64,000 bases of DNA from Tachypleus tridentatus (taxonomy: Eukaryota > Arthropoda > Merostomata > Xiphosura > Limulidae). Below the pieces are notes generated by a model that was not told the DNA's origin, searched no databases, and was given only the letters and a program-made list of their open reading frames with translations. Where the stretch lies: positions 38,677,771 to 38,741,770 of the forward strand of contig NW_027467782.1 in the NCBI RefSeq assembly GCF_004210375.1. Direction: 5' to 3'. Positions 1-35,700 of this stretch are shown here, piece by piece (position 1 is the stretch's first letter; every line of letters starts with the position of its first letter). The translations under genes and the position numbers were made by a program.

Positions 1-720
1 GTAGTCAACTGGTATACAAGTACTTGATTGGCACATTTTTGAAAACTCAAAATATAATGAGGATGACTACTATTTACACTAATAGAGAAATCCCAAAAGA
101 GCTCGCTAATGAGCATCTGGAGAGTCATGACACAGCTTTTGTTCGTAATGACAACGCTCTGATAGTAAAATGGGAAGACAGAAGAGCAGTATATGTGATA
201 ACCACAAAATATTCAGCTAATTTTGTTGAAAAGGATAAAACTTACTTTGGGGAACCAGACAATTTTACAAAAAAACTATGCTATATAGAAAAGTTTAATG
301 AAAACATGGGAGCAGTTGATAAAGCAGAACAGTTGCTGAAGCTTTATGAGCCAAGTCATAAACCCCACGCATGGTTTAAGAAGCTAGACCTACACTTGCT
401 GACATGTATGCTGCTAAATAGTTTTCATGTTTACAAAAATACTGCAAAAAAATATTTACTTTCAAGAGGTATGTCGTAATGGTCACACAGCAACTGGTGG
501 AAATGCATAATTCAGATGGAATTGCCACTAAAAAGAAATTTGTTGCTAGCAATCCTCATGCAGGTTGCAAGCAATAGCCTGGAAAAAAACTGTCCATGCT
601 TTAGTTTCTATTCCACCCTTGCCTGGTGGTTGAAATATGCATCCAAAAAAGTGATGCAGAGTGTGATATCCAAAATGGAAGGAAACAAGAAAGTGTTGTA
701 ATGAATGCTCTGAAAAACCA
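1..720 (+). mobile_element. piggyBac-family transposase 3' part, left copy (pseudogene)
   Basis: A 151-codon open frame at 24-479 encodes the C-terminal half of a piggyBac (DDE_Tnp_1_7) transposase: RNDNALIVKWEDRRAVYVIT, then YIEKFNENMGAVDKAEQL and the hydrophobic HLLTCMLLNSFHVYKN. In the insect piggyBac protein the corresponding GGVDTLDQ carries the last two catalytic aspartates; here the first is kept (AVD) and the second is Glu. A degraded Cys-containing tail follows to about 700. A one-base difference in a T run near position 40 puts the upstream sequence out of frame compared with the right copy. The element is cut by the window start. Confidence 0.85.
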
Positions 721-1113
721 GGTCAATGCAGTACAGACACTTTGAAATATGGCATAATAAATAGGATTCTTCCATTTACGTAAGTATTACAATTCAATAA
801 AGTTATATACTAATATACTCGCATATTTTTCAAGAACATATTATATAAGTAATACACTCATAAAAACAAAGTGTATAAAATTAATTATTTTATTGGTAGG
901 TGGGTAAAAATCATTTTACGCTACATGTGGCAATTTTCACAATTTGTACAGAAAGGGTTATTAACAAATTGTTAGAGTACAACAAGGACCCAAATTATGA
1001 ATATATTTTCTATAGCATATTCAATAAATGCAAAGAGTTAGATTGCAATATGAATTTCAAATTTAATTTCTTGTATCTCATGTCCATTTCACTGCTGGCA
1101 CAAAGATTTAAGG

Positions 1114-1237
1114 TTGTTGTTTTGAATTAAGCACAAAGCTACTCAATGAGCTATCTGTGCTCTGCCCACCACGGGTATCGAAACATGGTTTTTTAGCGTT
1201 GTAAGTCCACAGACATACCGCTGAGCCACTGGGGGGC
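1114..1237 (+). repeat. SINE family A insertion (tRNA-like), left copy
   Basis: A 124-bp unit starts ttgttgttttgaattaagca and carries a box-B-like ggtatcgaaac. It is flanked by a perfect 11-bp target-site duplication aagatttaagg (1103-1113 and 1238-1248), which proves a retroposed insertion. Similar units occur at 13274-13404 and, inverted, at about 15795-15912. Confidence 0.88.
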
Positions 1238-1248
1238 AAGATTTAAGG

Positions 1249-4200
1249 GAAGGTGGAACATCAGCATGATGGCTGATTATTGCTGAAAATTGAAATAAAA
1301 TAGCCAGAAGCAACATATAAAAGACCACATCCCATAGTTTTGAGACTAAAAGATGTACACTTCACTAAAAAAATCAGGAAGAATGAGAATGCATATTCAT
1401 TGTAAATAATATTCATTTTTTTCTGTCAAATAAGTTTTACAAATCAGGAAGAAGAAAAAACCCTTACTTAGATCAAATTATTATTTTGTTTATGATAATG
1501 GATAAAAATACAAACAAACTAAAAAAATAATATTATTTTTAAAACCAGTGGAGCTGAATTATGGGAAATTGAATATTAAATCCAAAACAACTTTAATTAT
1601 TACCATTTTTTTATAATATCAAACATCCAACTGAGAAAACTAATGTTATATTTGTTTGTTTACTGCTAAGTACAAATCTGCAGGACAAACTATTTGTAAT
1701 ATGGGTAGTTACTGCTTCATAAGTTGTTGTCTTTTTTATTTTACTTCAAGCTTGTTCAGTTTTCACATTTCAAACATCTGGAGTTTGATTCATACTTCCA
1801 CCAAACTTGTTGGCCCTGTCTCTGTTATGGCAATTTCTCAGTGCTACTGTTTTTGAACTGCTGATCAGAGAGAAGGCAACTGTTTGTTAGCACCCACCAC
1901 CATTTGATTTTATTTCTAGAACAACGTACTAATTAATTAATTGATTAAAATACCACTAACTGCTCAGCTATAGTGGTCAGTTTGAATATATTAGTTTACT
2001 TAGAAAGGTTGGCAGTGATTTCTTTTGCTAATTATATTTATATTCACTAACTTAATACATACGTCAGCAGCAGAAAGTATACAAGACTTTACAAATCTAC
2101 CTATTAGAAATTTTATCATTTTATCTGCCAAAAACCAGACATAGGCCTGTCGATTGATACAAAACTAGAAGTGGTTACAGAACAGTTGGAAATGACTTAC
2201 AGAATTACCTTTTAGCCAGAATTATGAGTTAACAAACAACTTTTTGAACCATTTACATTTGGACTCAGTCAGTTTTTTGTTTTAACACCTAAATATTATA
2301 CAAAAGTCTTTTATTCCAAATTTGTATGGTTTTTTTAAGACAGGATTATTATTAAGACTTCTATGTACCACAAACTTTAATAAAAAAAGTAAAACCATCC
2401 TCTCTCTTATAGCTGGGCTATTTATTAATGAGTTAGTACTAGCATGACAAAGCTATAGTTCTATTCAGTTATCTCATATTTTGTAAACATTCTGGACTAT
2501 ATTAAGTCCATAAGAACCAATATTCAAAAGCCTTGTACTTTTCTGAATTTGATAAAGAAAAAAATCCCACTTTACATTTGGGTCACACCTCTTGATTTAT
2601 ATCATTTTGGTGATACTGTGCCTCACTGACTATACTATAACTGAAATGATGTTTATTTATACAATGGCTGATTAACATAGAAATATCCTCTGAATTTGTA
2701 AACACATTAGTAAGATTAGATACCAATAAACACAGAATGGAAGTAGCTAGATACTACATATCTATTATTTTTTTTGATAACACAGGTGGAAGGGGGGGAG
2801 GGTTAAGATGAGGATCATACCACTGGTAAGTGAACTACCAACCACAACCTAGTCTCTTGAGAATAATATTAAAAAAATCATAAAATTGGACAAATTTAAA
2901 AGCATGACAAAATACACCTTGACATGAGTACTGTCAAATGAGAAGTGATAATTTGGCAAAATTCAATAGGAGTGTCACATGTGTCTAGAGTGTGTGTCAC
3001 ACTACTTTTTGTTTGCTAGAGGGATGTTGCATGATGATTTACAGGGGAGATGCATTTGAATCAGTTGATTATAAGGTATGTAAATGCTCAAGACGTGTTG
3101 CATATGAAAAAAACATTTCTGTATGGGGAGCAACATTTGAGAGGGTATAATGTACCATACTGGAAGGCAATTTTTTTTCCCTTACTTTTTAAGAACTTTT
3201 CAGAATAAGGGCTTCTGGCTTGAAATTTATTAACTTTCTAAACTTTTATGAACTCTTTATACATATGTGATCAGGTGGAATTAGTGTGACTCGAGTTTAT
3301 TTACCCATTTTTTTCAAAAAAATTATATGATTCTGAAATTTAGTTGGTAATTTGCAAACTTTTGGCTAATGAGATTTGTTCAACCTCAAACTTTCTTTAT
3401 TATCTAGCTAGTGGTACAATAAAATTTGTTTCAGTGATCATCTGGGTTAGGGGTTCTTTTGATAATCAAAATCCCTGTTCTGCAGATGATAGCATTGTTC
3501 CAATTGGTTTAGGGTGTAGTTTCTGAGTCTGTTGTTGTCCTAATTGTTTAGTCACAAAATTTCTATACTTCACTGATGAAAAGTGAAAACTGCCTTCCTT
3601 ATGTTAATGTTGTTTTTGGCACTATATCATTTAATAATTTCATTACATGAAATGAAAGGCCTATGATATGTTCCTCCACCTACAAGTCTTATAATATGAC
3701 AGCACTGTATTATTAAATAGTGTGGAACTGTGAACTTCAATATATAAATCTGTTAAACATATCACTAACACTTATATCTGTAGCAGATGACCAAACAACA
3801 TGCTTTCCAGGGAACCAGCAGAAAACAATGAAATGAAAGAATGGAACATATCTTAGTTACCAGAACAGTGAAGAAAACAGTTTATAAGTACATCAATATG
3901 TAACAGTATAACTATAACTATATAAGTATATCACTATGTAACAGTATAACTATAACTGTATAATAGTATCACTATGTAACAGTATAACTGTAACTACACA
4001 AGTGTATTTATGTCTACACAAGACATTCACTGGACCTCTGCAAACCAGTCATTACTTTTACTGCAGCTTGGATATATTTTTTCCTCATGCTCCCTCCACC
4101 ACATACTGCAACAGAGACAAATGTTTCCCACTCTCATTCAAAATTGCCATGCATGATGTATAGTAACATTAGACATATTCAGCTAAGTTTATTCACCACT

Positions 4201-6111
4201 CACACACTTGACATAGTTTATATAAACTTGTCACTGGTGTAATTTTTCTCGACATTAATCCCTTATTTTCCTTGTCTTTTACTTATATATATAAAACCCT
4301 GTATTGCTTAATTACATATCACAGCCAAAGAAAACAGTCAAAACATGTACATGATTATAAACCTGCGCAGTGACTTTCCGAACACCCTGTACTTAAAATA
4401 AACATTTGAAGTTTCCTATTAACATATTACAGTAATTTTAGAATGAACAAAGCATAATTTAAATTTAACATTATTCATCTATTTACATTTATTATCTTTT
4501 ATTGAGCTTTCAGCTGTGTCTGAATAACAGTAATGCCACAAAAGTTGCAATCACGTGACACATGAGCAGCTCATGTTATCATATCCAACAGTGATCTTTA
4601 AAAAGTACAACTGTTTTAGTTTTTACAAATAGTGCACCTAGTGTTTTGTAAAATATAATCACATTTCAGTTACATTATGTATGTATGTATATTATTACTA
4701 TTTTCAAATTAATTTTTAAATTTCAGTCATTATTCATAAAACAGAAAACTATGTGAACAAATATAGAAAATAATTATCTTTGCTACCTACAAATGTTAAG
4801 GTTTATACTTGCTTGGCATAAACTGTAAACATTGTTAAATTTGGCACGAGAAAAATATAAAACAAAATAATCTTTTTAAATTTTATATATGCATTTTGAA
4901 ATGACAAAAAATATATAAATTATTATGTAAATGCCATAGAATTTCACTGCAATGTATCAAGGCTACCAACTAAGCAGCATTTGGGTCTAAAAAATACATC
5001 CAATCTCCATTTTGTCTATATTTAAAAAAGGTGGTTCTTTAGTACTTAAGCCTTGCAAAGGCTGAGAAAAGAATGTGAAGGAGAAGTCTGAGCTTTTGAT
5101 TTGCTATGTATACCTCATGAAGTGCAGTGGGTTATGTGTAAAAATATGGTTTCAAAAATGGAAAAGGAGACAGAGCAATTATGGTGGATTCATTGAACAG
5201 AATGATATCTCAGGACACAGAAAATATAAGAGGTTCTTATTTTATATTCCAGCTTGCAATATTAATAATTTGAGTTTGTAACTCATAAGAAACTAGAGAT
5301 GTTGTATTGTGAGCTTTATAAAATGTAATATGACCAAACACATCACATGACAAAAAAAACTGATATTTAGCAATCTTATTTTGATATTTATTTTCAAATT
5401 AAGAAATTAAATAATGTATAGTTTTATGCCAAATTTACTGACATGAATTTATAAAATAGTAGTTCAATAATATTTTGAATATAACTCTACAAACATGATA
5501 ACATGCCCTCTGCCTCCAATCCATAGGAAAATTTGCCTCCATGGGGTTAATCACTACAAAAATTATGCTTTGCCTGAGTAGTAACAATATTATAATAAGT
5601 AATTTACATCAGTTCCATATTCCTTGAAGGGATAGTAAATTAATTAGAGAGGAGACTTAGGGAGTAGACATCACAATTTTCATACTGTATAAAATTAAGA
5701 ACTCAAACTGACATAATATTACATGTTTTAACATTTGATTTATTAACTTTATTTGTGACCATCTTTATTTGAAGATGTTGATACTACTATCATGATATTC
5801 TGTAAAAGGGTTGCAAAGTGCAGAAAAGGGTGCTTGTATAGAAAATGTTAAACATAAAAAATATAAAGACAAATTAGATTTAAAGGAAAAAATAGTAAAA
5901 TTTATCAGAAGATGTTAATTCAACAGTGTTTGTAAAATGCAACATAACCCTGAAATTGTCAAGCAAAGTCATTCAGCATAGATGTATATGATATAATGAT
6001 GAATTTGTTCGATGAAGAAAAAATTCTGAGTGTGAAAAAACATATACTTATACTGTGTAAGAAATTTAGCAATAAAATATTTTGTGAAATAAACAACCTA
6101 GGCACACACAC
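1249..6111. other. AT-rich intronic sequence, no gene seen (left copy)
   Basis: AT-rich non-coding sequence, presumably ATR intron downstream of exon 7. I see a short minisatellite at 3890-3995, a tatg microsatellite near 4678-4690, and no frame with convincing protein similarity. The equivalent in the right copy is 24685-29540. Confidence 0.6.
3888..3998. repeat. Minisatellite, about 3 x 38 bp (left copy)
   Basis: Three imperfect units share the core atgtaacagtataacta followed by taactatataagtatatcac or a close variant. The counterpart in the right duplication copy is at about 27318-27430. Confidence 0.75.
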
Positions 6112-6287
6112 CTTTTCTTTTCTGATTTCTCTAATGTAGTCATAACTCGGTCATAATACTTGGCTAAATGGAAGTGACCTTCTTCCCATTCAGGCTGAAT
6201 GGCAACCACATCTCGGTACATTAGAATAAGGGCATTACTCTCCAAGACAGCCGATTCTTCACTATATTTGGCAAGCATTAATGTTGC
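6112..6287 (-). CDS. ATR: ATR exon 7, left duplicate (176 nt, intact)
   Basis: By eye this is identical to 29541-29716, including the acceptor ttattag, the donor gtgtgt and the PEWEEGHFHLAKYYDR core. The frame is open and phases are 0 in, 2 out. Because it is equivalent to the right copy it could substitute for it in a transcript, but it cannot be added after it without breaking the frame. Confidence 0.9.
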
Positions 6288-7141
6288 CTAATAAAGATAA
6301 CAGAAAGTGGTATTACAATAAATGAACTTAGTTATCTTAAATTATTTCATATGCTCTATATTATTCATGTGGTCCTAAGCAAAATTTATACAGAGATGGA
6401 ACTACCACAATATTCAGATTTGAATTTAGTCAAAACACCCAATCTACATTATGATTTTATATCTACACACTAATAACCCAAATGGAAGGAGAAGATACCA
6501 ATAGTTTAGGGTGATGGAATAATATTTTACATTATTTGATCAGACTGAAGCTTCAAATTTTACAGTTGAATAAACTATTAAAACTCTGGAGGATTTAACA
6601 GTGTAACAAAGGCAGTATATATTTCACAAAAATATTAGATATTTTGAAATGAGAATGGAAAACTTCAGCTTTCTTAAATCATAACTTACCATTAGAAAAG
6701 TTAAAAATGAAGCACTTATTATGTATTTTTGCTTTTGTTAAAATACCCAAAAAAGAAATACCATTGTTAACTCTCTCAACATGGGCTTGGTTGACTTGAC
6801 TGACCACAAGACCTCTTTGCACTCATTTCTACTCTTTTTATATTTAATACTTCTAACTTTCAATACAGTGTATCTGTCCTCACAAAATTTGGCATACTTT
6901 CAGTTAACATTCCAAGTCATTCACATACAAAATCATATCTTTAGTGAAGAATTAAAAAAAAATACAATGGAGATTTTTTCACGAATTTATTGAGCATTTA
7001 CTTTGAATAGTCCACAGGCAAAGTAATTTTCATATTAAAATAAAAAAAATACTTTTTGTCACCTCAAGAATCTCAAATTTCCTTTGTGTAGTCCCTATAA
7101 TCTCCTAAGTAATACATTTCAAACAATTTTTGTTCCAGTAA

Positions 7142-7591
7142 AAGTTTATAGTTCATGTTATTTTCTTTACCCTATCTCAAAATAAAATCAGTCAATTTTA
7201 GATACCTTGTAAGCACCAGAAAAAAACAACCAAAAAAAGTACCCATCTTTTCTTTCTAGAATGACTTAAATTGTAACATAAACCTACATTCTTTTATCCC
7301 AAGTAGTTTTAAGCTCATAGCAGAATAAACCTACTTATAACTAAACCACTAACCCACCATTATGAGATGTTAATCACCTGGGAAACATGCAGTTCACATT
7401 ACATTAATGAATTACATTACTTGTGAGTTGCTTGCTCATAAAAAAAATATTACTTAATTTGTCTGAACTAAACTACACTAAAAGGATACTTATTTTTACA
7501 CTTTAGTTACTTTTATAAATAAACATAAAAATAAACATGAAAAATAAAATGCTTAATCATTTTCATTTTTTCTTGCTATTGACTATTAAAG
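7142..7591 (+). repeat. Dispersed repeat R1, about 450 bp, left copy
   Basis: This segment matches 30572-31022 directly (as part of the large duplication) and 35684-36119 in inverted orientation with more divergence, roughly 90 percent by eye. The third, unlinked copy shows it is a repeat in its own right. No open frame or terminal repeats were recognised. Confidence 0.75.
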
Positions 7592-8307
7592 AGACTTCAT
7601 CCTAATTATGCTAGACTCCTAATAGTAATGCATTTAATAATTTGTATTTAATTAAATAATGCACCAAACAATATAGATTTCTCAAAATTTTCCCTGGCTT
7701 TCCGGCTATGTGACAAAAGTCGTTACAAATTCATTCAACGTAGTTGTTAACTTTCTTGTAAGAATGACGTTTGTACTCGAAAGTGACATCAACATTTCAG
7801 AACATTGTACAATATGCCATTTGATACATAAAACCTTGACTTTCTATTGATCATAGGTAACATATCATTAAATATAGAGAACAACTGATGAATTATGAAA
7901 GGCATGATGTGACAGGAAGGGTCTGATTTTCTCTTTGATAGCTCTGTAACCAAACAGAATTGAAGGCTATAAAAAATCTGGTTTGTCTGAGTCATGATGA
8001 GTTTATAGAGAGAAATTTACTTTGAATTTTTTACTTTTCTGAATAGTGGTTGATAAAATATGAAAGATGACATGCTAGAAGAAAAGGTGTCAGAACAGAA
8101 GAAATACATGATTTTAAATATTGTAGAATTTAAAACTTATACACTATTAAAATATGGATTATTAGCTATGCTATTGTAATTAGTATAACACAAACACGAA
8201 GTAGTTTAATAAACTTCTGAATGTAAGACACTTAAACTTTGTATCTTATACATTAAAGAATAACACACAATATTAAAATAGATAAACAATCAATCACATT
8301 TTAAATT

Positions 8308-8626
8308 CAGGCCAACCTACAGCCTATAAAATGTTGACTCTATTTGGTTGGGGCCAATTGAAAGTGTGAGAGTTGGCAGGCCATAACATTTCTTTCTATA
8401 AAATAAGCAAAAAAGAGTCCTTTATATTTTCTACCAACTATAAAACTAATCAAATTTCTATTAAATTGTGATATAGAAACTCTTAAATTTAATAACAGAT
8501 GAAAAATAATTCATCAGATAAAAAACAAAAACTATCAAATTTAAGCACTATAATTTCATGTCATGAGCTGTATAGTGAGTTGGTGAACCAAATCTGACCT
8601 GCAGGCCACATGTTGTATACCTCTGT
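8308..8626. mobile_element. Possible hAT-like non-autonomous element (left copy)
   Basis: The right end reads ggccacatgttgtatacctc, and the left end reads cag then gccaacctacagcc. Reversed, the right end is close to the CAGNGGTNNNCAAC...GGCC ends seen in many hAT MITEs. The interior is non-coding and AT-rich. The target-site duplication was not resolved. Counterpart at 31742-32059. Confidence 0.4.
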
Positions 8627-8725
8627 TCTACATGTTTAATATTTTCTACATTATCATCAGCAAAAAGTATCTAAGTAATGTAACATAAGTGTTAAAACTT
8701 CTGTATAAGTAGCATCCATTATTAC

Positions 8726-8846
8726 CTTGGCACAAGCAGCAGCCTCTTTCTGTTTTTTGAGATGGGTTATTCTTGAACTGAGAAACATCTGGAAAATGTT
8801 CCTGAATTCCTTTCTGAAGAATATTGATAGCTTGTTCCTGTTCATT
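8726..8846 (-). pseudogene. ATR: ATR exon 6, left duplicate (121 nt, frameshifted)
   Basis: This is the same exon as 32160-32279, with identical splice sites, but a run of five A (coding strand) has become six, so the length is 121 nt and the last third reads out of frame after residue NPSQK. The change sits in a homopolymer, the commonest long-read consensus error, so real inactivation and sequencing error cannot be told apart here. It lies in the left copy of the duplication, downstream of the right copy in gene order. Confidence 0.85.
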
Positions 8847-10014
8847 CTGTATAACAAGTCACAAAATAAGCATACAGGTACCAGAGTACTAGCTGGCTAT
8901 TAAAATTTTAGAAACATGACAAGTTTGCATATCATATAACTGATATCAATATCTACTGAAAACTTAAAAACATTTAAAACCTCAATTTTTATATACATAT
9001 CAATTTTGACATAATTTTAAAATAATATTGATTTACTACTGATTCACATGTATGTTTCTACAAATATCTTGTACAACATCCATTTTGAAGATTCTTTACT
9101 TGATAACACTGTGTTATCAACCCTTCTGTTTCATTAAATTTTAATATCACCAGAGGAAGAGTGTTCAGGCTATTTATCATTTTTTGTGGTATAAATTTTT
9201 ATTCTCCATTTTTCTTTAATACTAGACCACAGTAAGATGTAACAGGGTCATTCAGTACAGTGGTTACAAATCTACATTATCACGAATAAAATACAGTATT
9301 AGGCCTAGATGAGTAATAACAAAATATTATACAGATAGATCAAAGACTAGATTATCCCAAGTACAGTTCAAGAAAAGAACTAGTTGAATAACAGGATTAT
9401 TCTATACAGAGATCTTAGTTTACACTATCACAAGTACAGTTCAACATTAGGCACAGTTGAATGGAAACAGGATCGTTTAATACAGTGATCTAAGACTATA
9501 TTATCACAAGTACAATTTAATATTAGGTTAAGAAAAGTGACACATGATCATTCAATTTGAGGTGTTATAGTTTAAAAGTCAGATATAACTTTTCAATCAG
9601 TAGGGGAAAAAATATATAGAAAGCTAGTACATCAGAAATATATGATAATATTTTAAAATGTAAGATTTTTCACAGAAAACTTACTGTTCATTATTTTAAC
9701 CCAAACCACATAACATTAAATACTCAAAACAAATCAAACTCACTTTAAACTATAAATCTTACAATTCAAGAGAGCAACACTCATTTGGAAATTGTTAACT
9801 TTCATGTAATCTAAAACCTACAGTGTTGAATTTGTTCACAAGTAAAAGTAAGTTGAAGTTAATACCTACATCAATGTGCCCTCTATCTTATATTGATAGT
9901 GTTCATAAACACCTCCGCACAATACTGACATTTTTCGAGATAGACCAATCCACAGTCCCTCCCTCAGACATGAATGTCTGCATAGACTGTGGACATACTA
10001 AAAGAAATATATAA
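8847..10014. other. ATR intron with a degenerate ~80-bp tandem repeat (left copy)
   Basis: Non-coding. From about 9240 to 9560 there are roughly four diverged units of about 80 bp sharing acaggatcatt, tacagtgatctaagac and attatcacaagtacagttca. The right copy carries the same at about 32680-32995. Nothing else was recognised. Confidence 0.6.
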
Positions 10015-11581
10015 TACTAACAACATAGTGAGGAACTGCACCACAGCCACAACAGGCATGTTACACACTCAGAAACTAAACTGTGCAGTGGATGTGGAAC
10101 TTGAAATGATATGTTATAATCACTGGCCAAGCCCCAACCACATATCCAAGGTATCACTGTTCAGGGTTGGAATCACAGGATCATGGTTCCTAAATCCCAT
10201 GTTGGTGGATAAGGCATTTGGATCATAATATATATATGTGTGTGTGAGACAGGATGGATCCAAACCCATAGCTACAGAGTGATGCATCTGGAATCATAAG
10301 AAGTAAATAAATAACACCAATGTGGACAAGCCCTTTCCTCAAACTGAAGAAGTCCAAAAGCAAAACCACAGATTTGGAATAACATGACACTGCATGCAAT
10401 ATTTAACCTGAGGAAACAGAACTTATCCAACCTGAAATTACAGACACTCATCCTCTCTCCCTAGCCAAGTGGGCAGCATAAATTCCATTTGTCCCTGGAA
10501 TTACTGGAAAGATATGGAACAAACTGTGATGAACCAAAAACACAGAATGGGACTACACTGCATCCACAATTATGAAGTGACAATGAACAATGTACTGAAC
10601 CAACATTAATCAAGAAGAAAGACCACACCAAACCCAACTGGATAGCTGAGTGTCGAAACTGAACTACTCTTACGAGTAAGCTCCTGTTTAAGCTGGTGCT
10701 GCTCCTACCAAAATCTGGAAAAAAACAACACTCAAAATCCTGAGTAGAAAGGTTTCTAACTGGGGGCAGGGGTAGTGCACATTAGAGAAGTCCTAAAAAA
10801 CAATGCTCTAGAATCAGCAAAGTAAGTGAACCAAATTTCCTAAATTTCTAAAAGCACACTGACCCTGATTTATTCAATCCACTGATGCAGAGATGGGGAA
10901 GAACCCCTTATGCTTTATTCATTATATTTTCTGAGTGGTAATCCAGCATAGTAGAGTAATACCACTCAGTCTGTCTCTGTGTGGTTGTATGTGACACCAC
11001 ATTTCCACAGAACCTGTAACAACCTAGATAAAGTATACTGTGTCAGTAGTTGCTAGAGTGAATTTGGTTTGATAAAAGCACACTTGATTGGGCAACACTC
11101 ACCAAAAAGTAGAATTTTGAAATTAAAAAAAAAAGAGAGAAGATTAGTGATGAAAATACTCACCTTTCAGTATAACCTAGCAGATGAGGTTAACATAGAT
11201 GTAGGGTAGTAAAAAAACCCTCAAAGAAAGATAATGCCAGATTATGTAAATAATGTGAGATAAAAGTATTGGGGAAGGTTCACACACAAGCTCAGAATGT
11301 CCTCCAGTGAGCAATTCAACTGGGCCACGATGAACATAGAAATGTGATGAATCTGATAAGTTGAGACTTGTAGAATTTTCCTTGCCTTCAGAGAGAGCCC
11401 ATAAAAATCAATATGGATCAATTCTACCCCTCATCCCATTGAGGTAACCAGAGGTAAGCCCTGGGAAACTAAAGAGACACAATAAATAAAAAGCCATTGT
11501 CCAGCACCACTAAAACCTTTAGTTTAGGCAACCTAACACCTCAAGGCCTTCATTAGACATAAGAAACAATGGGGACCCATC
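10015..11581. repeat. Unidentified less AT-rich block, left copy
   Basis: From about 10.0 kb the base composition becomes visibly less AT-rich and poly-A/T tracts thin out up to the end of the duplication. The right copy starts at about 33450 and the same texture continues past the duplication end to about 37.65 kb. Both strands have only short open frames without recognisable domains. It looks like a long dispersed element or its remains, but I cannot name a family. Confidence 0.35.
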
Positions 11582-13273
11582 GTGGAATAGATGAATCAGT
11601 CCTTCATTTTCTCTTTCTTCATACTTTTAATTTACCTTGCAGTTCTTTCACACCTGTTTTTTATGCAATTTTGACCTCTAAGTCTGAACCATTACATCTA
11701 CACTGTCACTTTCTTCTTTTCCTGTATCAATGTTACTTTATCAATACAGGATCAGCACACTTAATCACTGAATGTTGTAGCATGTTGACATCTGTTTTGT
11801 GGCCAGCTGTAGATCAAATTTTCACAAAAGTGTGCAACAGTTATCTGTATTTTTTGGCCAATCAGGTTTTGGTAAAGGTATCAACCAATTAACTAAAGAT
11901 CCAAAGTGACTGCAAAGTGCAATTATCTACCCATGCTGTTTTTGGTCTTGTATCTGAATTTGTTTAATAATGAAAAACTATTTAATATTATAAAACTAGT
12001 TTTCATAGTTTAAAACTTGCACATAAAGAGTCATTAATACAATTAAGTTATAAAGAGAAGTACTTGCCCTGTTAAGTGCTCTTGAAGCTTTACTAGTTGC
12101 TTCACGTACAAGTGACAGTAAGAATAAAACCATAATAACCTGTAGGACTCACTCAACCACTAGAAATACCTTTTTTCTTATTACAATACAGCCACAATTC
12201 AAAGCACGTTTTCACCATTGCCCTTAAAGTCTAAAATTGTAAATTTACAATTTATGTAGTCCCTACTTATAAGTTATATACTAATAATTTCATTTTAAAA
12301 TGTTGTCCAAATCTACTTACATAATTCGGCAGACACTACTTGTAATGAGAATGAACAATTATTAATTATGTGGTTAACTAACTCGTTTTCGTATTAACCC
12401 TCACAGACTAGCATTAGGCTTAGCAGCTACAGTAAATTCAAGTTACAGTACATTTTACAAGTACAAATATTGCACTGGTTAATATTTACAATGTCCTTGT
12501 ACACGACAATAAAATTTAAATATGTTTCACTTTGATAATTTTTCTTCTTGTAAATTTTCTTTCCTGATTCGTTTGGTTTTTCCTTGGGGCATCACTTCAC
12601 ATAAATAAATCTATAAACATTTTACTGCATCATATCTTTTAACCCCAACGTATTGAATGCAATATTTTGCTTGCAAATTGTCAGTGACCTGCGTAGTAAG
12701 CTACATGTGTTATCGAGCGACTTCAACAATTCCAAAAAAGTGCCAAGCGAATCTGCAAAAAATTCTCGTCATATTAAGAATATTAAAAGCGTACATGTAT
12801 GCTTATATTCTTGTCATTGTTAGCAGAATGGAATATTTTGTAATTCTAACAGTATTATGAGGTTAAAGGTGACAAATAGGACTTGGATGATATCACAATA
12901 GTTGTCTCCAGATCCTAAGGTAAGTAATTAATGTGATTTTAATCTGTAATGTTTAATATTGCATTAGTACTAAAACTGGTACTCATGCCCACGAAATGTG
13001 TAAAACTAAAATTCTACGTCGGATGTTGATCAAAGCTGGTAGTAGCGGTAGTTGTGAGTTTATTATTGCAATTACAAACTATTAATTAAAGTACTTCAAA
13101 GTGTATATGAGATTGGGATAAATGGCTCATTTATTATTTGAGTTCATAATGTTTTGTGATACAATAACTTGTAAGTTACTCAAAATTTCGAATAGAAAGA
13201 CTTACATTTTCAAAGCAGTATAGTTTTGTAATAAACTTTTCAAATTCCGAGTGAAAATTCGTTGGACATCAGT
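11582..13273. other. Unique sequence after the duplication end
   Basis: No homology to the right copy begins here. An open frame of 107 codons at 11569-11892 shows no recognisable domain. From about 12640 to 13080 the sequence has more CpG than its surroundings and contains a donor-like aaggtaagt at 12918; this could be the edge of a regulatory or first-exon region but nothing proves it. Confidence 0.4.
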
Positions 13274-13404
13274 TTGTTTGTTTGTTTGTTCAGAATTAAG
13301 CACAAAGCTGCACAATGGGCTATCTGTGCTCTGCCTACCATGGGCTTCGAAACCCGGGTTTTAGTGGTGTGAGCCTGCAAACAAACCGCTGTACCATTTG
13401 AGGC
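13274..13404 (+). repeat. SINE family A insertion with perfect target duplication
   Basis: The unit begins with a tttg repeat, then cagaattaagcacaaagctg, and carries gcttcgaaacccgg, a box-B-like sequence. It is flanked by a perfect 12-bp direct repeat ttggacatcagt (13262-13273 and 13405-13416), so it is a recent insertion. Confidence 0.88.
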
Positions 13405-14636: not shown

Positions 14637-14816
14637 TATATATATATATACAGTCATAAACTTTCGCAGTTTGTAAAACAATTTTAAAAATATTTTTAGC
14701 ATAATATTTTAACAATTGAGTTATCTATAATTATATAAGATAACGTGTACACTCTTGCATAATTTTAAAAGGTAATTGTTTTTATACATTTAATTATTTT
14801 CCTACTGTAAATTGTT

Positions 14817-22870: not shown

Positions 22871-22929
22871 TGGCATCCAGTGTAAAGATGTCGTTTAAAT
22901 TGATATATTTACATTTTTTACTCTTCATT

Positions 22930-24145
22930 TTTAAACTAGAATATGTAAATATAACAATATGAACCAGTATTGGGCAAGAATGCCCTATGAAACAGGTATT
23001 CATTTTTTTCTGGGCTGCCATAACAAGTAGAGACGTGCATGTCATTTGTAAAATTTTATGCTTTACTAAAATAAATGATGTCAAAAAATGTAACTTATAC
23101 AAGCTTGGATGCTATTGGTGAGCTTTTCAGAAAATTTTGATGAAAAATGTGGATGTAGGAGAACATATTTTAATTGATGAAGCATTAGTTCTATGGAAAG
23201 GATGACTAGGCTTTTGCCAATTCATAAAAACTAAATGTACAAGGCATCAAATTATTTGTCATGTGCAACAGTGAAAACAATTGGTGTGAATACAGCTTAA
23301 GGGCGTACTACAGAGAATACCCAACAATCAATATTCTTTACTTGATGTTGAAGGAGTAAATAAGCTTACATCTAGTGAAAAATAAATAACTGTCCATTTA
23401 TTAGAATCTGTTCTTGAACAAGGGTGTCATGTAACTGTAGTCAACTGGTATACAAGTACTTGATTGGCACATTTTTTGAAAACTCAAAATATAATGAGGA
23501 TGACTACTATTTACACTAATAGAGAAATCCCAAAAGAGCTCGCTAATGAGCATCTGGAGAGTCATGACACAGCTTTTGTTCGTAATGACAACGCTCTGAT
23601 AGTAAAATGGGAAGACAGAAGAGCAGTATATGTGATAACCACAAAATATTCAGCTAATTTTGTTGAAAAGGATAAAACTTACTTTGGGGAACCAGACAAT
23701 TTTACAAAAAAACTATGCTATATAGAAAAGTTTAATGAAAACATGGGAGCAGTTGATAAAGCAGAACAGTTGCTGAAGCTTTATGAGCCAAGTCATAAAC
23801 CCCACGCATGGTTTAAGAAGCTAGACCTACACTTGCTGACATGTATGCTGCTAAATAGTTTTCATGTTTACAAAAATACTGCAAAAAAATATTTACTTTC
23901 AAGAGGTATGTCGTAATGGTCACACAGCAACTGGTGGAAATGCATAATTCAGATGGAATTGCCACTAAAAAGAAATTTGTTGCTAGCAATCCTCATGCAG
24001 GTTGCAAGCAATAGCCTGGAAAAAAACTGTCCATGCTTTAGTTTCTATTCCACCCTTGCCTGGTGGTTGAAATATGCATCCAAAAAAGTGATGCAGAGTG
24101 TGATATCCAAAATGGAAGGAAACAAGAAAGTGTTGTAATGAATGC
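22930..24145 (+). mobile_element. piggyBac-family transposase remnant, right copy (pseudogene)
   Basis: This copy shows more of the element. A piece reading LIDEALVLWKG near 23180-23210 matches the SIDE(S/A)LV core of piggyBac transposases; VVNWYTS near 23440 matches the CDNWFTS motif, with the catalytic Asp replaced by Val; the open C-terminal frame at 23464-23916 follows. Several in-frame stops lie between 23210 and 23465 (for example after HVQQ, and TGA directly after VVNWYTST), so this is a dead copy. I could not find terminal inverted repeats or TTAA target duplications with confidence. The duplication carried the same insertion, so it predates the duplication event. Confidence 0.85.
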
Positions 24146-24550
24146 TCTGAAAAACCAGGTCAATGCAGTACAGACACTTTGAAATATGGCATAATAAATA
24201 GGATTCTTCCATTTACGTAAGTATTACAATTCAATAAAGTTATATACTAATATACTCGCATATTTTTCAAGAACATATTATATAAGTAATACACTCATAA
24301 AAACAAAGTGTATAAAAATTAATTATTTTATTGGTAGGTGGGTAAAATCATTTTACGCTACATGTGGCAATTTTCACAATTTGTACAGAAAGGGTTATTA
24401 ACAAATTGTTAGAGTACAACAAGGACCCAAATTATGAATATATTTTCTATAGCATATTCAATAAATGCAAAGAGTTAGATTGCAATATGAATTTCAAATT
24501 TAATTTCTTGTATCTCATGTCCATTTCACTGCTGGCACAAAGATTTAAGG

Positions 24551-24673
24551 TTGTTGTTTTGAATTAAGCACAAAGCTACTCAATGAGCTATCTGTGCTCT
24601 GCCCACCACGGGTATCGAAACATGGTTTTTAGCGTTGTAAGTCCACAGACATACCGCTGAGCCACTGGGGGGC
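24551..24673 (+). repeat. SINE family A insertion (tRNA-like), right copy
   Basis: This is the duplicated counterpart of the SINE at 1114-1237 with the same 11-bp target-site duplication (24540-24550 and 24674-24684). It is one base shorter in a T run. It shows that the SINE was present before the large duplication. Confidence 0.88.
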
Positions 24674-24684
24674 AAGATTTAAGG

Positions 24685-27600
24685 GAAGGTGGAACATCAG
24701 CATGATGGCTGATTATTGCTGAAAATTGAAATAAAATAGCCAGAAGCAACATATAAAAGACCACATCCCATAGTTTTGAGACTAAAAGATGTACACTTCA
24801 CTAAAAAAATCAGGAAGAATGAGAATGCATATTCATTGTAAATAATATTCATTTTTTTCTGTCAAATAAGTTTTACAAATCAGGAAGAAGAAAAACCCTT
24901 ACTTAGATCAAATTATTATTTTGTTTATGATAATGGATAAAAATACAAACAAACTAAAAAAAAATAATATTATTTTAAAACCAGTGGAGCTGAATTATGG
25001 GAAATTGAATATTAAATCCAAAACAACTTTAATTATTACCATTTTTTATAATATCAAACATCCAACTGAGAAAACTAATGTTATATTTGTTTGTTTACTG
25101 CTAAGTACAAATCTGCAGGACAAACTATTTGTAATATGGGTAGTTACTGCTTCATAAGTCGTTGTCTTTTTTATTTTACTTCAAGCTTGTTCAGTTTTCA
25201 CATTTCAAACATCTGGAGTTTGATTCATACTTCCACCAAACTTGTTGGCCCTGTCTCTGTTATGGCAATTTCTCAGTGCTACTGTTTTTGAACTGCTGAT
25301 CAGAGAGAAGGCAACTGTTTGTTAGCACCCACCACCATTTGATTTTATTTCTAGAACAATGTACTAATTAATTAATTGATTAAAATACCACTAACTGCTC
25401 AGCTATAGTGGTCAGTTTGAATATATTAGTTTACTTAGAAAGGTTGGCAGTGATTTCTTTTGCTAATTATATTTATATTCACTAACTTAATACATACGTC
25501 AGCAGCAGAAAGTATACAAGACTTTACAAATCTACCTATTAGAAATTTTATCATTTTATCTGCCAAAAACCAGACATAGGCCTGTCGATTGATACAAAAC
25601 TAGAAGTGGTTACAGAACAGTTGGAAATGACTTACAGAATTACCTTTAGCCAGAATTATGAGTTAACAAACAACTTTTGAACCATTTACATTTGGACTCA
25701 GTCAGTTTTTGTTTTAACACCTAAATATTATACAAAAGTCTTTTATTCCAAATTTGTATGGTTTTTTTAAGACAGGATTATTATTAAGACTTCTATGTAC
25801 CACAAACTTTAATAAAAAAAAGTAAAACCATCCTCTCTCTTATAGCTGGGCTATTTATTAATGAGTTAGTACTAGCATGACAAAGCTATAGTTCTATTCA
25901 GTTATCTCATATTTTGTAAACATTCTGGACTATATTAAGTCCATAAGAACCAATATTCAAAAGCCTTGTACTTTTCTGAATTTGATAAAGAAAAAATCCC
26001 ACTTTACATTTGGGACACACCTCTTGATTTATATCATTTTGGTGATACTGTGCCTCACTGACTATACTATAACTGAAATGATGTTTATTTATACAATGGC
26101 TGATTAACATAGAAATATCCTCTGAATTTGTAAACACATTAGTAAGATTAAATACCAATAAACACAGAATGGAAGTAGCTAGATACTACATATCTATTAT
26201 TTTTTTTGATAACACAGGTGGAAGGGGGGAGGGATAAGATGAGGATCATACCACTGGTAAGTGAACTACCAACCACAACCTAGTCTCTTGAGAATAATAT
26301 TAAAAAAAATCATAAAATTGGACAAATTTAAAAAGCATGACAAAATACACCTTGACATGAGTACTGTCAAATGAGAAGTGATAATTTGGCAAAATTCAAT
26401 AGGAGTGTCACATGTGTCTAGAGTGTGTGTCACACTACTTTTTGTTTGCTAGAGGGATGTTGCATGATGATTTACAGGGGAGATGCATTTGAATCAGTTG
26501 ATTATAAGGTATGTAAATGCTCAAGACGTGTTGCATATGAAAAAAACATTTCTGTATGGGGAGCAACATTTGAGAGGGTATAATGTACCATACTGGAAGG
26601 CAATTTTTTTTCCCTTACTTTTTAAGAACTTTTCAGAATAAGGGCTTCTGGCTTGAAATTTATTAACTTTCTAAACTTTTATGAACTCTTTATACATATG
26701 TGATCAGGTGGAATTAGTGTGACTCGAGTTTATTTACCCATTTTTTTCAAAAAAATTATATGATTCTGAAATTTAGTTGGTAATTTGCAAACTTTTGGCT
26801 AATGAGATTTGTTCAACCTCAAACTTTCTTTATTATCTAGCTAGTGGTACAATAAAATTTGTTTCAGTGATCATCTGGGTTAGGGTTCTTTTGATAATCA
26901 AAATCCCTGTTCTGCAGATGATAGCATTGTTCCAATTGGTTTAGGGTGTAGTTTCTGAGTCTGTTGTTGTCCTAATTGTTTAGTCACAAAAATTTCTATA
27001 CTTCACTGATGAAAAGTGAAAACTGCCTTCCTTATGTTAATGTTGTTTTGGCACTATATCATTTAATAATTTCATTACATGAAATGAAAGGCCTATGATA
27101 TGTTCCTCCACCTACAAGTCTTATAATATGACAGCACTGTATTATTAAATAGTGTGGAACTGTGAACTTCAATATATAAATCTGTTAAACATATCACTAA
27201 CACTTATATCTGTAGCAGATGACCAAACAACATGCTTTCCAGGGAACCAGCAGAAAACAATGAAATGAAAGAATGGAACATATCTTAGTTACCAGAACAG
27301 TGAAGAAAACAGTTTATAAGTACATCAATATGTAACAGTATAACTATAACTATATAAGTATATCACTATGTAACAGTATAACTATAACTGTATAATAGTA
27401 TCACTATGTAACAGTATAACTGTAACTACACAAGTGTATTTATGTCTACACAAGACATTCACTGGACCTCTGCAAACCAGTCATTACTTTTACTGCAGCT
27501 TGGATATATTTTTTCCTCATGCTCCCTCCACCACATACTGCAACAGAGACAAATGTTTCCCACTCTCATTCAAAATTGCCATGCATGATGTATAGTAACA

Positions 27601-29540
27601 TTAGACATATTCAGCTAAGTTTATTCACCACTCACACACTTGACATAGTTTATATAAACTTGTCACTGGTGTAATTTTTCTCGACATTAATCCCTTATTT
27701 TCCTTGTCTTTTACTTATATATATAAAACCCTGTATTGCTTAATTACATATCACAGCCAAAGAAAACAGTCAAAACATGTACATGATTATAAACCTGCGC
27801 AGTGACTTTCCGAACACCCTGTACTTAAAATAAACATTTGAAGTTTCCTATTAACATATTACAGTAATTTTAGAATGAACAAAGCATAATTTAAATTTAA
27901 CATTATTCATCTATTTACATTTATTATCTTTTATTGAGCTTTCAGCTGTGTCTGAATAACAGTAATGCCACAAAAGTTGCAATCACGTGACACATGAGCA
28001 GCTCATGTTATCATATCCAACAGTGATCTTAAAAAGTACAACTGTTTTAGTTTTTTACAAATAGTGCACCTAGTGTTTTGTAAAATATAATCACATTTCA
28101 GTTACATTATGTATGTATGTATATTATTACTATTTTCAAATTAATTTTAAATTTCAGTCATTATTCATAAAACAGAAAACTATGTGAACAAATATAGAAA
28201 ATAATTATCTTTGCTACCTACAAATGTTAAGGTTTATACTTGCTTGGCATAAACTGTAAACATTGTTAAATTTGGCACGAGAAAAATATAAAACAAAATA
28301 ATCTTTTAAATTTTATATATGCATTTTGAAATGACAAAAAATATATAAATTATTATGTAAATGCCATAGAATTTCACTGCAATGTATCAAGGCTACCAAC
28401 TAAGCAGCATTTGGGTCTAAAAAATACATCCAATCTCCATTTTGTCTATATTTAAAAAAGGTGGTTCTTTAGTACTTAAGCCTTGCAAAGGCTGAGAAAA
28501 GAATGTGAAGGAGAAGTCTGAGCTTTTGATTTGCTATGTATACCTCATGAAGTGCAGTGGGTTATGTGTAAAAATATGGTTTCAAAAATGGAAAAGGAGA
28601 CAGAGCAATTATGGTGGATTCATTGAACAGAATGATATCTCAGGACACAGAAAATATAAGAGGTTCTTATTTTATATTCCAGCTTGCAATATTAATAATT
28701 TGAGTTTGTAACTCATAAGAAACTAGAGATGTTGTATTGTGAGCTTTATAAAATGTAATATGACCAAACACATCACATGACAAAAAAAACTGATATTTAG
28801 CAATCTTATTTTGATATTTATTTTCAAATTAAGAAATTAAATAATGTATAGTTTTATGCCAAATTTACTGACATGAATTTATAAAATAGTAGTTCAATAA
28901 TATTTTGAATATAACTCTACAAACATGATAACATGCCCTCTGCCTCCAATCCATAGGAAAATTTGCCTCCATGGGGTTAATCACTACAAAAATTATGCTT
29001 TGCCTGAGTAGTAACAATATTATAATAAGTAATTTACATCAGTTCCATATTCCTTGAAGGGATAGTAAATTAATTAGAGAGGAGACTTAGGGAGTAGACA
29101 TCACAATTTTCATACTGTATAAAATTAAGAACTCAAACTGACATAATATTACATGTTTTAACATTTGATTTATTAACTTTATTTGTGACCATCTTTATTT
29201 GAAGATGTTGATACTACTATCATGATATTCTGTAAAAGGGTTGCAAAGTGCAGAAAAGGGTGCTTGTATAGAAAATGTTAAACATAAAAAAATATAAAGA
29301 CAAATTAGATTTAAAGGAAAAAATAGTAAAATTTATCAGAAGATGTTAATTCAACAGTGTTTGTAAAATGCAACATAACCCTGAAATTGTCAAGCAAAGT
29401 CATTCAGCATAGATGTATATGATATAATGATGAATTTGTTCGATGAAGAAAAATTCTGAGTGTGAAAAACATATACTTATACTGTGTAAGAAATTTAGCA
29501 ATAAAATATTTTGTGAAATAAACAACCTAGGCACACACAC
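24685..29540. other. AT-rich intronic sequence, no gene seen (right copy)
   Basis: Duplicate of 1249-6111 with the same contents; presumed ATR intron downstream of exon 7. No coding similarity was found and the next ATR exon is absent here. Confidence 0.6.
27318..27430. repeat. Minisatellite, about 3 x 38 bp (right copy)
   Basis: Duplicate of the minisatellite at 3888-3998, with the same three units and the atgtaacagtataacta core. Confidence 0.75.
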
Positions 29541-29716
29541 CTTTTCTTTTCTGATTTCTCTAATGTAGTCATAACTCGGTCATAATACTTGGCTAAATGG
29601 AAGTGACCTTCTTCCCATTCAGGCTGAATGGCAACCACATCTCGGTACATTAGAATAAGGGCATTACTCTCCAAGACAGCCGATTCTTCACTATATTTGG
29701 CAAGCATTAATGTTGC
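29541..29716 (-). CDS. ATR: ATR exon 7, right copy (176 nt, intact)
   Basis: This exon encodes 58 residues plus two bases: ATLMLAKYSEESAVLESNAL, then YRDVVAIQPEWEEGHFHLAK and YYDRVM. Human ATR has EETANFESNAIMKKYKDV then LPEWEDGHFYLAKYYDKLM; the Pro-Glu-Trp-Glu and HFxLAKYYD core is a hallmark of ATR orthologues. Acceptor is ttattag, donor gtgtgt, phase 0 in and phase 2 out. The next expected exon (human GDLIRYIVLHFGRS) was not found between here and position 1. Confidence 0.96.
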
Positions 29717-32700
29717 CTAATAAAGATAACAGAAAGTGGTATTACAATAAATGAACTTAGTTATCTTAAATTATTTCATATGCTCTATATTATTCATGTG
29801 GTCCTAAGCAAAATTTATACAGAGATGGAACTACCACAATATTCAGATTTGAATTTAGTCAAAACACCCAATCTACATTATGATTTTATATCTACACACT
29901 AATAACCCAAATGGAAGGAGAAGATACCAATAGTTTAGGGTGATGGAATAATATTTTACATTATTTGATCAGACTGAAGCTTCAAATTTTACAGTTGAAT
30001 AAACTATTAAAACTCTGGAGGATTTAACAGTGTAACAAAGGCAGTATATATTTCACAAAAATATTAGATATTTTGAAATGAGAATGGAAAACTTCAGCTT
30101 TCTTAAATCATAACTTACCATTAGAAAAGTTAAAAATGAAGCACTTATTATGTATTTTTGCTTTTGTTAAAATACCCAAAAAAGAAATACCATTGTTAAC
30201 TCTCTCAACATGGGCTTGGTTGACTTGACTGACCACAAGACCTCTTTGCACTCATTTCTACTCTTTTTATATTTAATACTTCTAACTTTCAATACAGTGT
30301 ATCTGTCCTCACAAAATTTGGCATACTTTCAGTTAACATTCCAAGTCATTCACATACAAAAATCATATCTTTAGTGAAGAATTAAAAAAAAATACAATGG
30401 AGATTTTTTCACGAATTTATTGAGCATTTACTTTGAATAGTCCACAGGCAAAGTAATTTTCATATTAAAATAAAAAAAATACTTTTTGTCACCTCAAGAA
30501 TCTCAAATTTCCTTTGTGTAGTCCCTATAATCTCCTAAGTAATACATTTCAAACAATTTTTGTTCCAGTAAAAGTTTATAGTTCATGTTATTTTCTTTAC
30601 CCTATCTCAAAAATAAAATCAGTCAATTTTAGATACCTTGTAAGCACCAGAAAAAAAACAACCAAAAAAGTACCCATCTTTTCTTTCTAGAATGACTTAA
30701 ATTGTAACATAAACCTACATTCTTTTATCCCAAGTAGTTTTAAGCTCATAGCAGAATAAACCTACTTATAACTAAACCACTAACCCACCATTATGAGATG
30801 TTAATCACCTGGGAAACATGCAGTTCACATTACATTAATGAATTACATTACTTGTGAGTTGCTTGCTCATAAAAAAAATATTACTTAATTTGTCTGAACT
30901 AAACTACACTAAAAGGATACTTATTTTTACACTTTAGTTACTTTTATAAATAAACATAAAAATAAACATGAAAAATAAAATGCTTAATCATTTTCATTTT
31001 TTCTTGCTATTGACTATTAAAGAGACTTCATCCTAATTATGCTAGACTCCTAATAGTAATGCATTTAATAATTTGTATTTAATTAAATAATGCACCAAAC
31101 AATATAGATTTCTCAAAATTTTCCCTGGCTTTCCGGCTATGTGACAAAAGTCGTTACAAATTCATTCAACGTAGTTGTTAACTTTCTTGTAAGAACGACG
31201 TTTGTACTCGAAATGACATCAACATTTCAGAACATTGTACAATATGCCATTTGATACATAAAAACCTTGACTTTCTATTGATCATAGGTAACATATCATT
31301 AAATATAGAGAGAACAACTGATGAATTATGAAAGGCATGATGTGACAGGAAGGGTCTGATTTTCTCTTTGATAGCTCTGTAACCAAACAGAATTGAAGGC
31401 TATAAAAAAATCTGGTTTGTCTGAGTCATGATGAGTTTATAGAGAGAAATTTACTTTGAATTTTTTACTTTTCTGAATAGTGGTTGATAAAATATGAAAG
31501 ATGACATGCTAGAAGAAAAGGTGTCAGAACAGAAGAAATACATGATTTTAAATATTGTAGAATTTAAAACTTATACACTATTAAAATATGGATTATTAGC
31601 TATGCTATTGTAATTAGTATAACACAAACACGAAGTAGTTTAATAAACTTCTGAATGTAAGACACTTAAACTTTGTATCTTATACATTAAAGAATAACAC
31701 ACAATATTAAAATAGATAAACAATCAATCACATTTTAAATTCAGGCCAACCTACAGCCTATAAAATGTTGACTCTATTTGGTTGGGGCCAATTGAAAGTG
31801 TGAGAGTTGGCAGGCCATAACATTTCTTTCTATAAAATAAGCAAAAAAGAGTCCTTTATATTTTCTACCAACTATAAAACTAATCAAATTTCTATTAAAT
31901 TGTGATATAGAAACTCTTAAATTTAATAACAGATGAAAAATAATTCATCAGATAAAAAACAAAAACTATCAAATTTAAGCACTATAATTTCATGTCATGA
32001 GCTGTATAGTGAGTTGGTGAACCAAATCTGACCTGCAGGCCACATGTTGTATACCTCTGTTCTACATGTTTAATATTTTCTACATTATCATCAGCAAAAA
32101 GTATCTAAGTAATGTAACATAAGTGTTAAAACTTCTGTATAAGTAGCATCCATTATTACCTTGGCACAAGCAGCAGCCTCTTTCTGTTTTTGAGATGGGT
32201 TATTCTTGAACTGAGAAACATCTGGAAAATGTTCCTGAATTCCTTTCTGAAGAATATTGATAGCTTGTTCCTGTTCATTCTGTATAACAAGTCACAAAAT
32301 AAGCATACAGGTACCAGAGTACTAGCTGGCTATTAAAATTTTAGAAACATGACAAGTTTGCATATCATATAACTGATATCAATATCTACTGAAAACTTAA
32401 AAACATTTAAAACCTCAATTTTTATATACATATCAATTTTGACATAATTTTAAAATAATATTGATTTACTACTGATTCACATGTATGTTTCTACAAATAT
32501 CTTGTACAACATCCATTTTGAAGATTCTTTACTTGATAACACTGTGTTATCAACCCTTCTGTTTCATTAAATTTTAATATCACCAGAGGAAGAGTGTTCA
32601 GGCTATTTATCATTTTTTGTGGTATAAATTTTTATTCTCCATTTTTCTTTAATACTAGACCACAGTAAGATGTAACAGGGTCATTCAGTACAGTGGTTAC

Positions 32701-35700
32701 AAATCTACATTATCACGAATAAAATACAGTATTAGGCCTAGATGAGTAATAACAAAATATTATACAGATAGATCAAAGACTAGATTATCCCAAGTACAGT
32801 TCAAGAAAAGAACTAGTTGAATAACAGGATTATTCTATACAGAGATCTTAGTTTACACTATCACAAGTACAGTTCAACATTAGGCACAGTTGAATGGAAA
32901 CAGGATCATTTAATACAGTGATCTAAGACTATATTATCACAAGTACAATTTAATATTAGGTTAAGAAAAGTGACACATGATCATTCAATTTGAGGTGTTA
33001 TAGTTTAAAAGTCAGATATAACTTTTCAATCAGTAGGGGAAAAAATATATAGAAAGCTAGTACATCAGAAATATATGATAATATTTTAAAATGTAAGATT
33101 TTTCACAGAAAACTTACTGTTCATTATTTTAACCCAAACCACATAACATTAAATACTCAAAACAAATCAAACTCACTTTAAACTATAAATCTTACAATTC
33201 AAGAGAGCAACACTCATTTGGAAATTGTTAACTTTCATGTAATCTAAAACCTACAGTGTTGAATTTGTTCACAAGTAAAAGTAAGTTGAAGTTAATACCT
33301 ACATCAATGTGCCCTCTATCTTATATTGATAGTGTTCATAAACACCTCCGCACAATACTGACATTTTTCGAGATAGACCCAATCCACAGTCCCTCCCTCA
33401 GACATGAATGTCTGCATAGACTGTGGACATACTAAAAGAAATATATAATACTAACAACATAGTGAGGAACTGCACCACAGCCACAACAGGCATGTTACAC
33501 ACTCAGAAACTAAACTGTGCAGTGGATGTGGAACTTGAAATGATATGTTATAATCACTGGCCAAGCCCCAACCACATATCCAAGGTATCACTGTTCAGGG
33601 TTGGAATCACAGGATCATGGTTCCTAAATCCCATGTTGGTGGATAAGGCATTTGGATCATAATATATATATGTGTGTGTGAGACAGGATGGATCCAAACC
33701 CATAGCTACAGAGTGATGCATCTGGAATCATAAGAAGTAAATAAATAACACCAATGTGGACAAGCCCTTTCCTCAAACTGAAGAAGTCCAAAAGCAAAAC
33801 CACAGATTTGGAATAACATGACACTGCATGCAATATTTAACCTGAGGAAACAGAACTTATCCAACCTGAAATTACAGACACTCATCCTCTCTCCCTAGCC
33901 AAGTGGGCAGCATAAATTCCATTTGTCCCTGGAATTACTGGAAAGATATGGAACAAACTGTGATGAACCAAAAACACAGAATGGGACTACACTGCATCCA
34001 CAATTATGAAGTGACAATGAACAATGTACTGAACCAACATTAATCAAGAAGAAAGACCACACCAAACCCAACTGGATAGCTGAGCGTCGAAACTGAACTA
34101 CTCTTACGAGTAAGCTCCTGTTTAAGCTGGTGCTGCTCCTACCAAAATCTGGAAAAAAAAACAACACTCAAAATCCTGAGTAGAAAGGTTTCTAACTGGG
34201 GGCAGGGGTAGTGCACATTAGAGAAGTCCTAAAAAACAATGCTCTAGAATCAGCAAAGTAAGTGAACCAAATTTCCTAAATTTCTAAAAGCACACTGACC
34301 CTGATTTATTCAATCCACTGATGCAGAGATGGGGAAGAACCCCTTATGCTTTATTCATTATATTTTCTGAGTGGTAATCCAGCATAGTAGAGTAATACCA
34401 CTCAGTCTGTCTCTGTGTGGTTGTATGTGACACCACATTTCCACAGAACCTGTAACAACCTAGATAAAGTATACTGTGTCAGTAGTTGCTAGAGTGAATT
34501 TGGTTTGATAAAAGCACACTTGATTGGGCAACACTCACCAAAAAGTAGAATTTTGAAATTAAAAAAAAAGAGAGAAGATTAGTGATGAAAATACTCACCT
34601 TTCAGTATAACCTAGCAGATGAGGTTAACATAGATGTAGGGGTAGTAAAAAACCCTCAAAGAAAGATAATGCCAGATTATGTAAATAATGTGAGATAAAA
34701 GTATTGGGGAAGGTTCACACACAAGCTCAGAATGTCCTCCAGTGAGCAATTCAACTGGGCCACGATGAACATAGAAATGTGATGAATCTGATAAGTTGAG
34801 ACTTGTAGAATTTTCCTTGCCTTCAGAGAGAGCCCATATGGAAAATCAATATGGATCAATTCTACACAATAAATAAAAAGCCTCATCCCATTGAGGTAAC
34901 CAGAGGTAAGCCCTGGGAAACTCAGAGAGAAGATGGATCACTACCCCTCATCCCATTGAGGTAAATAAGCCCTGGGAAACTAAAGAGACACAATAAATAA
35001 AAAAGCCATTGTCCAGCACCACTAAAACCTTTAGTTTAGGCAACCTAACACCTCAAGGCCTTCATTAGACATAAGAAACAATGGGGACCCATCATTTATA
35101 TGTGTGAAAATAAAGAGGTCAGATGAATCAGTGAAAAGTATTTATCCCTTTCCCTGGCTGCCAGTGGTAAGGTAAGGAGGACCTATCTGGGTACAGAAAA
35201 CATGGGTAGAATGAAAAGTGTCCTCTGTAAGTGTAATGCAAATAACTCTGACTGGTGATGTCCACAGGCCAGAAGCAACATAAAATAAACCCTAAGGGAA
35301 AAGTGGTACATGGTATATGAGATAAGGGTTGATTAGGCCAATCTCGTGCAATCAACAGAATACGACAAGAGATTGAAGAAATCATTGCTAGGAAGCTGGG
35401 TAACAGATCAATCAGTGGGTAGGTGTATAAGCACAATCCAGTCCAGTTATGACTGAATAGAACTATTGTCAATGCCTAAGGGTGGGTTACTAGAGACCAA
35501 AAGGCTGGTAGTTGAGTGTTCCAAAGAAAATGAGAAGTTTTAGCTCTGATAATAAATTCTATCTTTTTTGCTTTAGAGAAATAGTATCTGACTGTGCTGT
35601 GATGCTGCTACTAGTAGCAAGATGTCCATGTAATGGTGTGTGCACAGGCCCAGGGTATGGGGTTAATTAAAAAGATTTGTAAACTTTAATAGTCAATAGC

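Follow-up and report, generated by a model that had tools for sequence, protein, structure and literature searches.

A segment of the gene for ATR, a kinase that protects DNA replication, stands twice in the window (the whole 64,000-base stretch of DNA analysed here), and the sequence suggests an assembly mistake rather more than a real extra copy. We consider it probable that the segment is a false duplication arising from alleles or from a contig overlap, because the differences between the copies are dominated by homopolymer length and because the exon pair that the segment carries, 296 bp long, falls out of frame if included twice. The segment would then be present once per haploid genome, and its double entry would be the work of the assembler: two consensus stretches built from long reads of one locus, either two alleles or overlapping contig ends, would have been placed head to tail unmerged, and the junction at 11581/11582 would have been produced by a gapless join or by gap filling. 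The sequence-only reading had offered two interpretations, a real duplication and an assembly error or unmerged haplotypes; on the two grounds just given we lean to the second, while the first keeps a lesser share of probability on the grounds of contiguous sequence and a balanced error load. The probabilities that we attach to the several readings are judgements and were not computed.

A megablast comparison of the window with itself revealed a direct duplication, both copies having the same orientation, in which positions 1-11477 match 23437-34930 at 99.39% identity with 9 mismatches, 44 gap openings and 61 gapped bases; in a global alignment the homology reaches 11581 and 35093 and then ends. 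These results bear out the claim of the sequence-only reading that 1-11581 and 23437-35093 are collinear and almost identical. Apart from a satellite array, this is the sole long direct duplication of the window in the self-comparison. The parts of the window that concern it are as follows.

1-11581, no strand: copy a of the duplicated segment (megablast and global alignment), with its left end beyond the window.
11403-11454, no strand: the longest inter-copy difference, where copy b (about 34839-34965) is longer by 3, 14 and 59 bp.
11581-11582, no strand: the junction, at which copy a ceases to match copy b; the partner point is 35093/35094.
11582-23436, no strand: the inter-copy stretch, in which one tblastn search of limited sensitivity recognised no ATR exon.
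About 19610-20415: a decayed transposon of DDE_1/CENP-B-N type, which we take to be Tigger-like (PF03184, E = 4.9e-07; PF04218, E = 0.0079, below cut-off).
23437-35093, no strand: copy b of the duplicated segment (megablast and global alignment).

Only the right boundary of the duplication is visible, base 1 of the window pairing with base 23437. A perfect tandem unit of 23.4 kb is thus an extrapolation, because the homology is truncated on the left by the start of the window. We regard it as improbable that the duplication has another shape, with the homology ending within 11.86 kb left of the window and the doubled sequence being either a segment inserted as a copy or an overlap of limited extent; a left boundary outside the view leaves room for such a shape, but nothing in the window demands it, and a plain head-to-tail copy is simpler.

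Four ATR exons, two of them occurring once and two occurring in both copies, were recognised on the minus strand.

41886-42010, minus strand: ATR exon n-2, 125 bp, single occurrence (tblastn E = 0.16, splicing and protein match).
38784-38883, minus strand: ATR exon n-1, 100 bp, single occurrence (tblastn E = 3e-04, splicing and protein match).
32160-32279, minus strand: ATR exon n of copy b, 120 bp, with intact frame (splicing and protein match).
29541-29716, minus strand: ATR exon n+1 of copy b, 176 bp, FAT region (PF02259, splicing and protein match).
8726-8846, minus strand: ATR exon n of copy a, 121 bp, in which one extra T at 8753-8758 shifts the frame.
6112-6287, minus strand: ATR exon n+1 of copy a, 176 bp, identical to that of copy b.

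The coordinates of the four duplicated exons had been given correctly by the sequence-only reading, and each has an AG acceptor and a GT donor. Exons n-2, n-1, n and n+1 (copy b) have AG/GT borders and a consistent phase, and the 173-residue protein spliced from n-2, n-1 and the copy-b pair matches ATR among PDB chains with E = 1.2e-34 and yeast MEC1 with E = 8e-05. From this protein match with consecutive exons in phase, the gene is identified as the ATR kinase gene. Exon order, phase and protein agree with the FAT region of ATR, a member of the PIKK family, as it is represented in the PDB chains, whereas in this assembly two exons are doubled and one is frameshifted. The FAT domain PF02259 matches exon n+1 with E = 1.8e-04 and 21.3 bits, which does not reach the curated Pfam cut-off of 24.2, and in an alignment of 60 columns the exon shares 51.7% identity with human ATR. 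The tblastn probe was the C-terminal part of human ATR, which over its first 369 residues showed no mismatch to an ATR chain of the PDB, and the exon search took in n-2 and everything downstream. With this probe the well conserved human ATR stretch that follows exon n+1 was not found in the window, so the next ATR exon should lie left of it; the best match left of 6112 was on the plus strand with E = 0.79. In the inter-copy stretch the best match was likewise on the plus strand (E = 4.0). Poorly conserved exons could escape this search, in which exon n itself gave E = 3.0 and exon n-2 the value listed above; we counted this weakness against a false duplication.

Exons n and n+1 of copy b together measure 120 + 176 = 296 bp, and a second such pair shifts the frame. 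A transcript in which the copy-b pair is repeated contains 5 stops, and the copy-a pair by itself also ruins the frame (5 stops), its exon n having a run of six T at 8753-8758 where copy b has five, a frameshift that the sequence-only reading did not mention. ATR is essential in animals. A fixed copy would require constant skipping, because the second 296-bp pair breaks the frame of an essential gene. These observations weigh on the main alternative, which we hold to be unlikely though by no means negligible: a genuine and very recent tandem duplication within ATR, about 23.5 kb long, comprising two FAT-region exons with flanking intron and either fixed or confined to one haplotype. Skipping of one exon pair would then preserve function, or the allele would be a recessive null; both the repeated pair and the frameshift in copy a speak against it.

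As written, the assembly nevertheless encodes an open frame in one arrangement. A transcript carrying the copy-b pair and then the copy-a pair, with 297 bp added, is open over 272 codons, of which 99 are extra, about 31 of them out of the normal frame and the following 68 repeating native sequence; the base that makes this possible lies in an error-prone T run. Length-specific discordance rates predict 0.51 homopolymer changes in 297 exonic bases, and we infer a chance of roughly one in five that a change would occur in the frame-restoring direction. We therefore rejected frame rescue as a sign of selection and took the open frame as chance, since discordance affects 8 of 25 six-base runs in any case. 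That the sequence is correct as written, a young tandem duplication of ATR in which a single base inserted into the second exon n restores translation, strikes us as very improbable indeed; if it were so, the FAT solenoid of ATR would be enlarged by 99 residues, or exon skipping would yield the enlarged form alongside the normal one.

The nature of the differences between the copies is the other ground for favouring a false duplication. Within bases 1-11395 of copy a we counted 38 pure homopolymer-length changes and 8 substitutions (a substitution level of 0.07%), besides one AG dinucleotide and one single-base gap outside a run. Nine mismatch columns (7227, 7228, 7230, 7232 and 11207-11211) were omitted as alignment shifts between two homopolymer changes, and three of 41 homopolymer entries (1724, 2720 and 2803) as side effects of substitutions. 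Discordance rises steeply with run length in copy a: runs of 1, 2 and 3 bases differ in 0/5780, 1/1378 and 2/492 cases (3/7650 in total), and runs of 4, 5, 6 and 7 bases in 8/204, 8/45, 8/25 and 10/19 cases (4%, 18%, 32% and 53%), with 1/7 discordant among runs of 8 or more (0/5, 0/1 and 1/1). Mutation would not be expected to change 18% of 5-base runs while substituting 0.07% of bases. The steep dependence up to 7 bases looks, on this analysis, like long-read consensus error, and it resembles the nanopore read and consensus errors described in the parts of PMC6591954 and PMC8486125 drawn on here. Such dominance of sequencing-type error (38 against 8) is a supporting mark of false duplication, not a definition of it, and it is found here.

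The direction of the homopolymer differences is close to even, 23 of the 41 entries being longer in copy a and 18 in copy b, or 21 and 17 once the substitution side effects are removed and 38 entries are left. Because of this even split, both copies seem to be multi-read consensus rather than the product of a few bad reads. The similar load counts against a false duplication and in favour of a real one. Residual errors would persist in a true duplication too, since short reads used for polishing would have no unique placement, and a true young duplication would look much alike in sequence. Against a real duplication stands the general expectation that noisy reads must exceed the unit length to resolve copies so similar.

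Five of the 8 substitutions fall at CpG (CpG against TpG or CpA), although CpGs cover about 0.75% of positions. The probability of this result is 1e-09 with no hypermutation at CpG, 8e-05 with tenfold, 0.0075 with 30-fold and 0.07 with 60-fold hypermutation. The bias fits modified-base miscalls or allelic deamination; such miscalls have been demonstrated, in the part of PMC6591954 drawn on here, at Dcm sites and not at CpG. Over the whole window CpG is strongly depleted (observed/expected = 0.19), which suggests heavy germline CpG methylation.

The longest difference is of another kind. Three words of 16, 19 and 16 bp are each present twice at the end of copy b, and no repeated word of 12 or more was found at the end of copy a. 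A block of 3, 14 and 59 bp is hard for base-calling to make, so the reads probably came from two DNA templates, which may be alleles or paralogues. The block is a point in favour of a real tandem duplication.

There is no N among the 64,000 bases of the window and hence no gap between the copies. A gap between copies is a listed mark of false duplication (PMC9516828), and its absence counts against that reading and for a contiguous, real tandem duplication. Rightward of the junction points, stretches of 619 bp and 607 bp show no significant similarity to each other. Breakpoint recombination between long repeats was accordingly rejected as a candidate, there being no sign of it on this side, while the left flank of the unit lies beyond the window; its absence from view is a point against a real duplication. 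Just past both junction points lies an identical 12-base word (11589-11600 and 35121-35132), equalled by 2 of 5000 random pairs of 50-base stretches in a post hoc comparison; it is a weak hint of breakpoint repair and so favours a real duplication. Two further matches of 12-13 bp occur within the 2.4 by 2.9 kb adjoining the junctions.

Near-identical copies, with 0.07% substitutions, are usually collapsed by assemblers and not duplicated, a consideration that counts against a false duplication. So does the association, in the portion of PMC9516828 drawn on here, of false gains with regions more divergent than these copies; the same source reports an allele-specific true tandem duplication, in line with a real event. 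In favour of a false duplication, such errors accounted in that source for 3.7 to 15.9% of the sequence in three older drafts, 7 to 24% of the cases lay on a single scaffold, and some genes had exons doubled or displaced in error; unmerged alleles, under-collapsed overlaps and incorrect gap filling are described as causes. The present case is like these heterotype and homotype duplications in that its copies are direct, nearly identical and neighbours on a single scaffold, and involve exons of one gene. It differs in that the published class was defined by read depth and k-mers, whereas this case is known from assembled sequence and lacks an N gap. True intragenic multi-exon duplications, as reported for CDKL5 (PMC11544015) and dmrt1 (PMC7605655), share with it the copying of exons inside one gene, and the authors of the CDKL5 report assume a frame shift in their case; unlike them, the ATR duplication is only putative and its copies differ mainly in homopolymer length. 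A literature search on ATR exon duplication found no paper, and a looser search gave none on a duplication within ATR by title among the matches listed.

If the doubling is an artefact, as we favour, ATR gene models derived from this assembly will be split or frameshifted or will contain spurious paralogues, and a warning should be attached to the locus ahead of evolutionary use. If it is real, an essential checkpoint kinase would have been caught with a fresh intragenic duplication, and RNA would reveal directly how splicing handles it.

Several other elements lie in the window, in which no RNA family or tRNA was matched; the general character of its mobile elements may point to an arthropod. 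A 44-base part of the satellite unit described below found no match among viral contigs. A transposase remnant (PF13843, DDE_Tnp_1_7), presumably of piggyBac type, stands at the left end of both copies (3-476 and 23464-23913), and a dispersed repeat of about 450 bp occurs in both (7143-7591 and 30573-31022), with an inverted relative of about 88.6% just right of copy b at 35684-36119. Minus-strand open segments at 44243-47605 give the impression of a decayed non-LTR retrotransposon; one has a weak Exo_endo_phos match at 46762-47148 (E = 0.0035, below cut-off), and two others scanned against Pfam have none. A transposase fragment (PF01359, Transposase_1) at 62366-62611 is one that we take to be of mariner type. 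To the right of the ATR exons found, and hence upstream of them, a satellite array at 48864-55489 holds about 110 copies of a 61-bp unit with 94% matches, and the self-comparison suggests that near-identical units form a long block in its interior.
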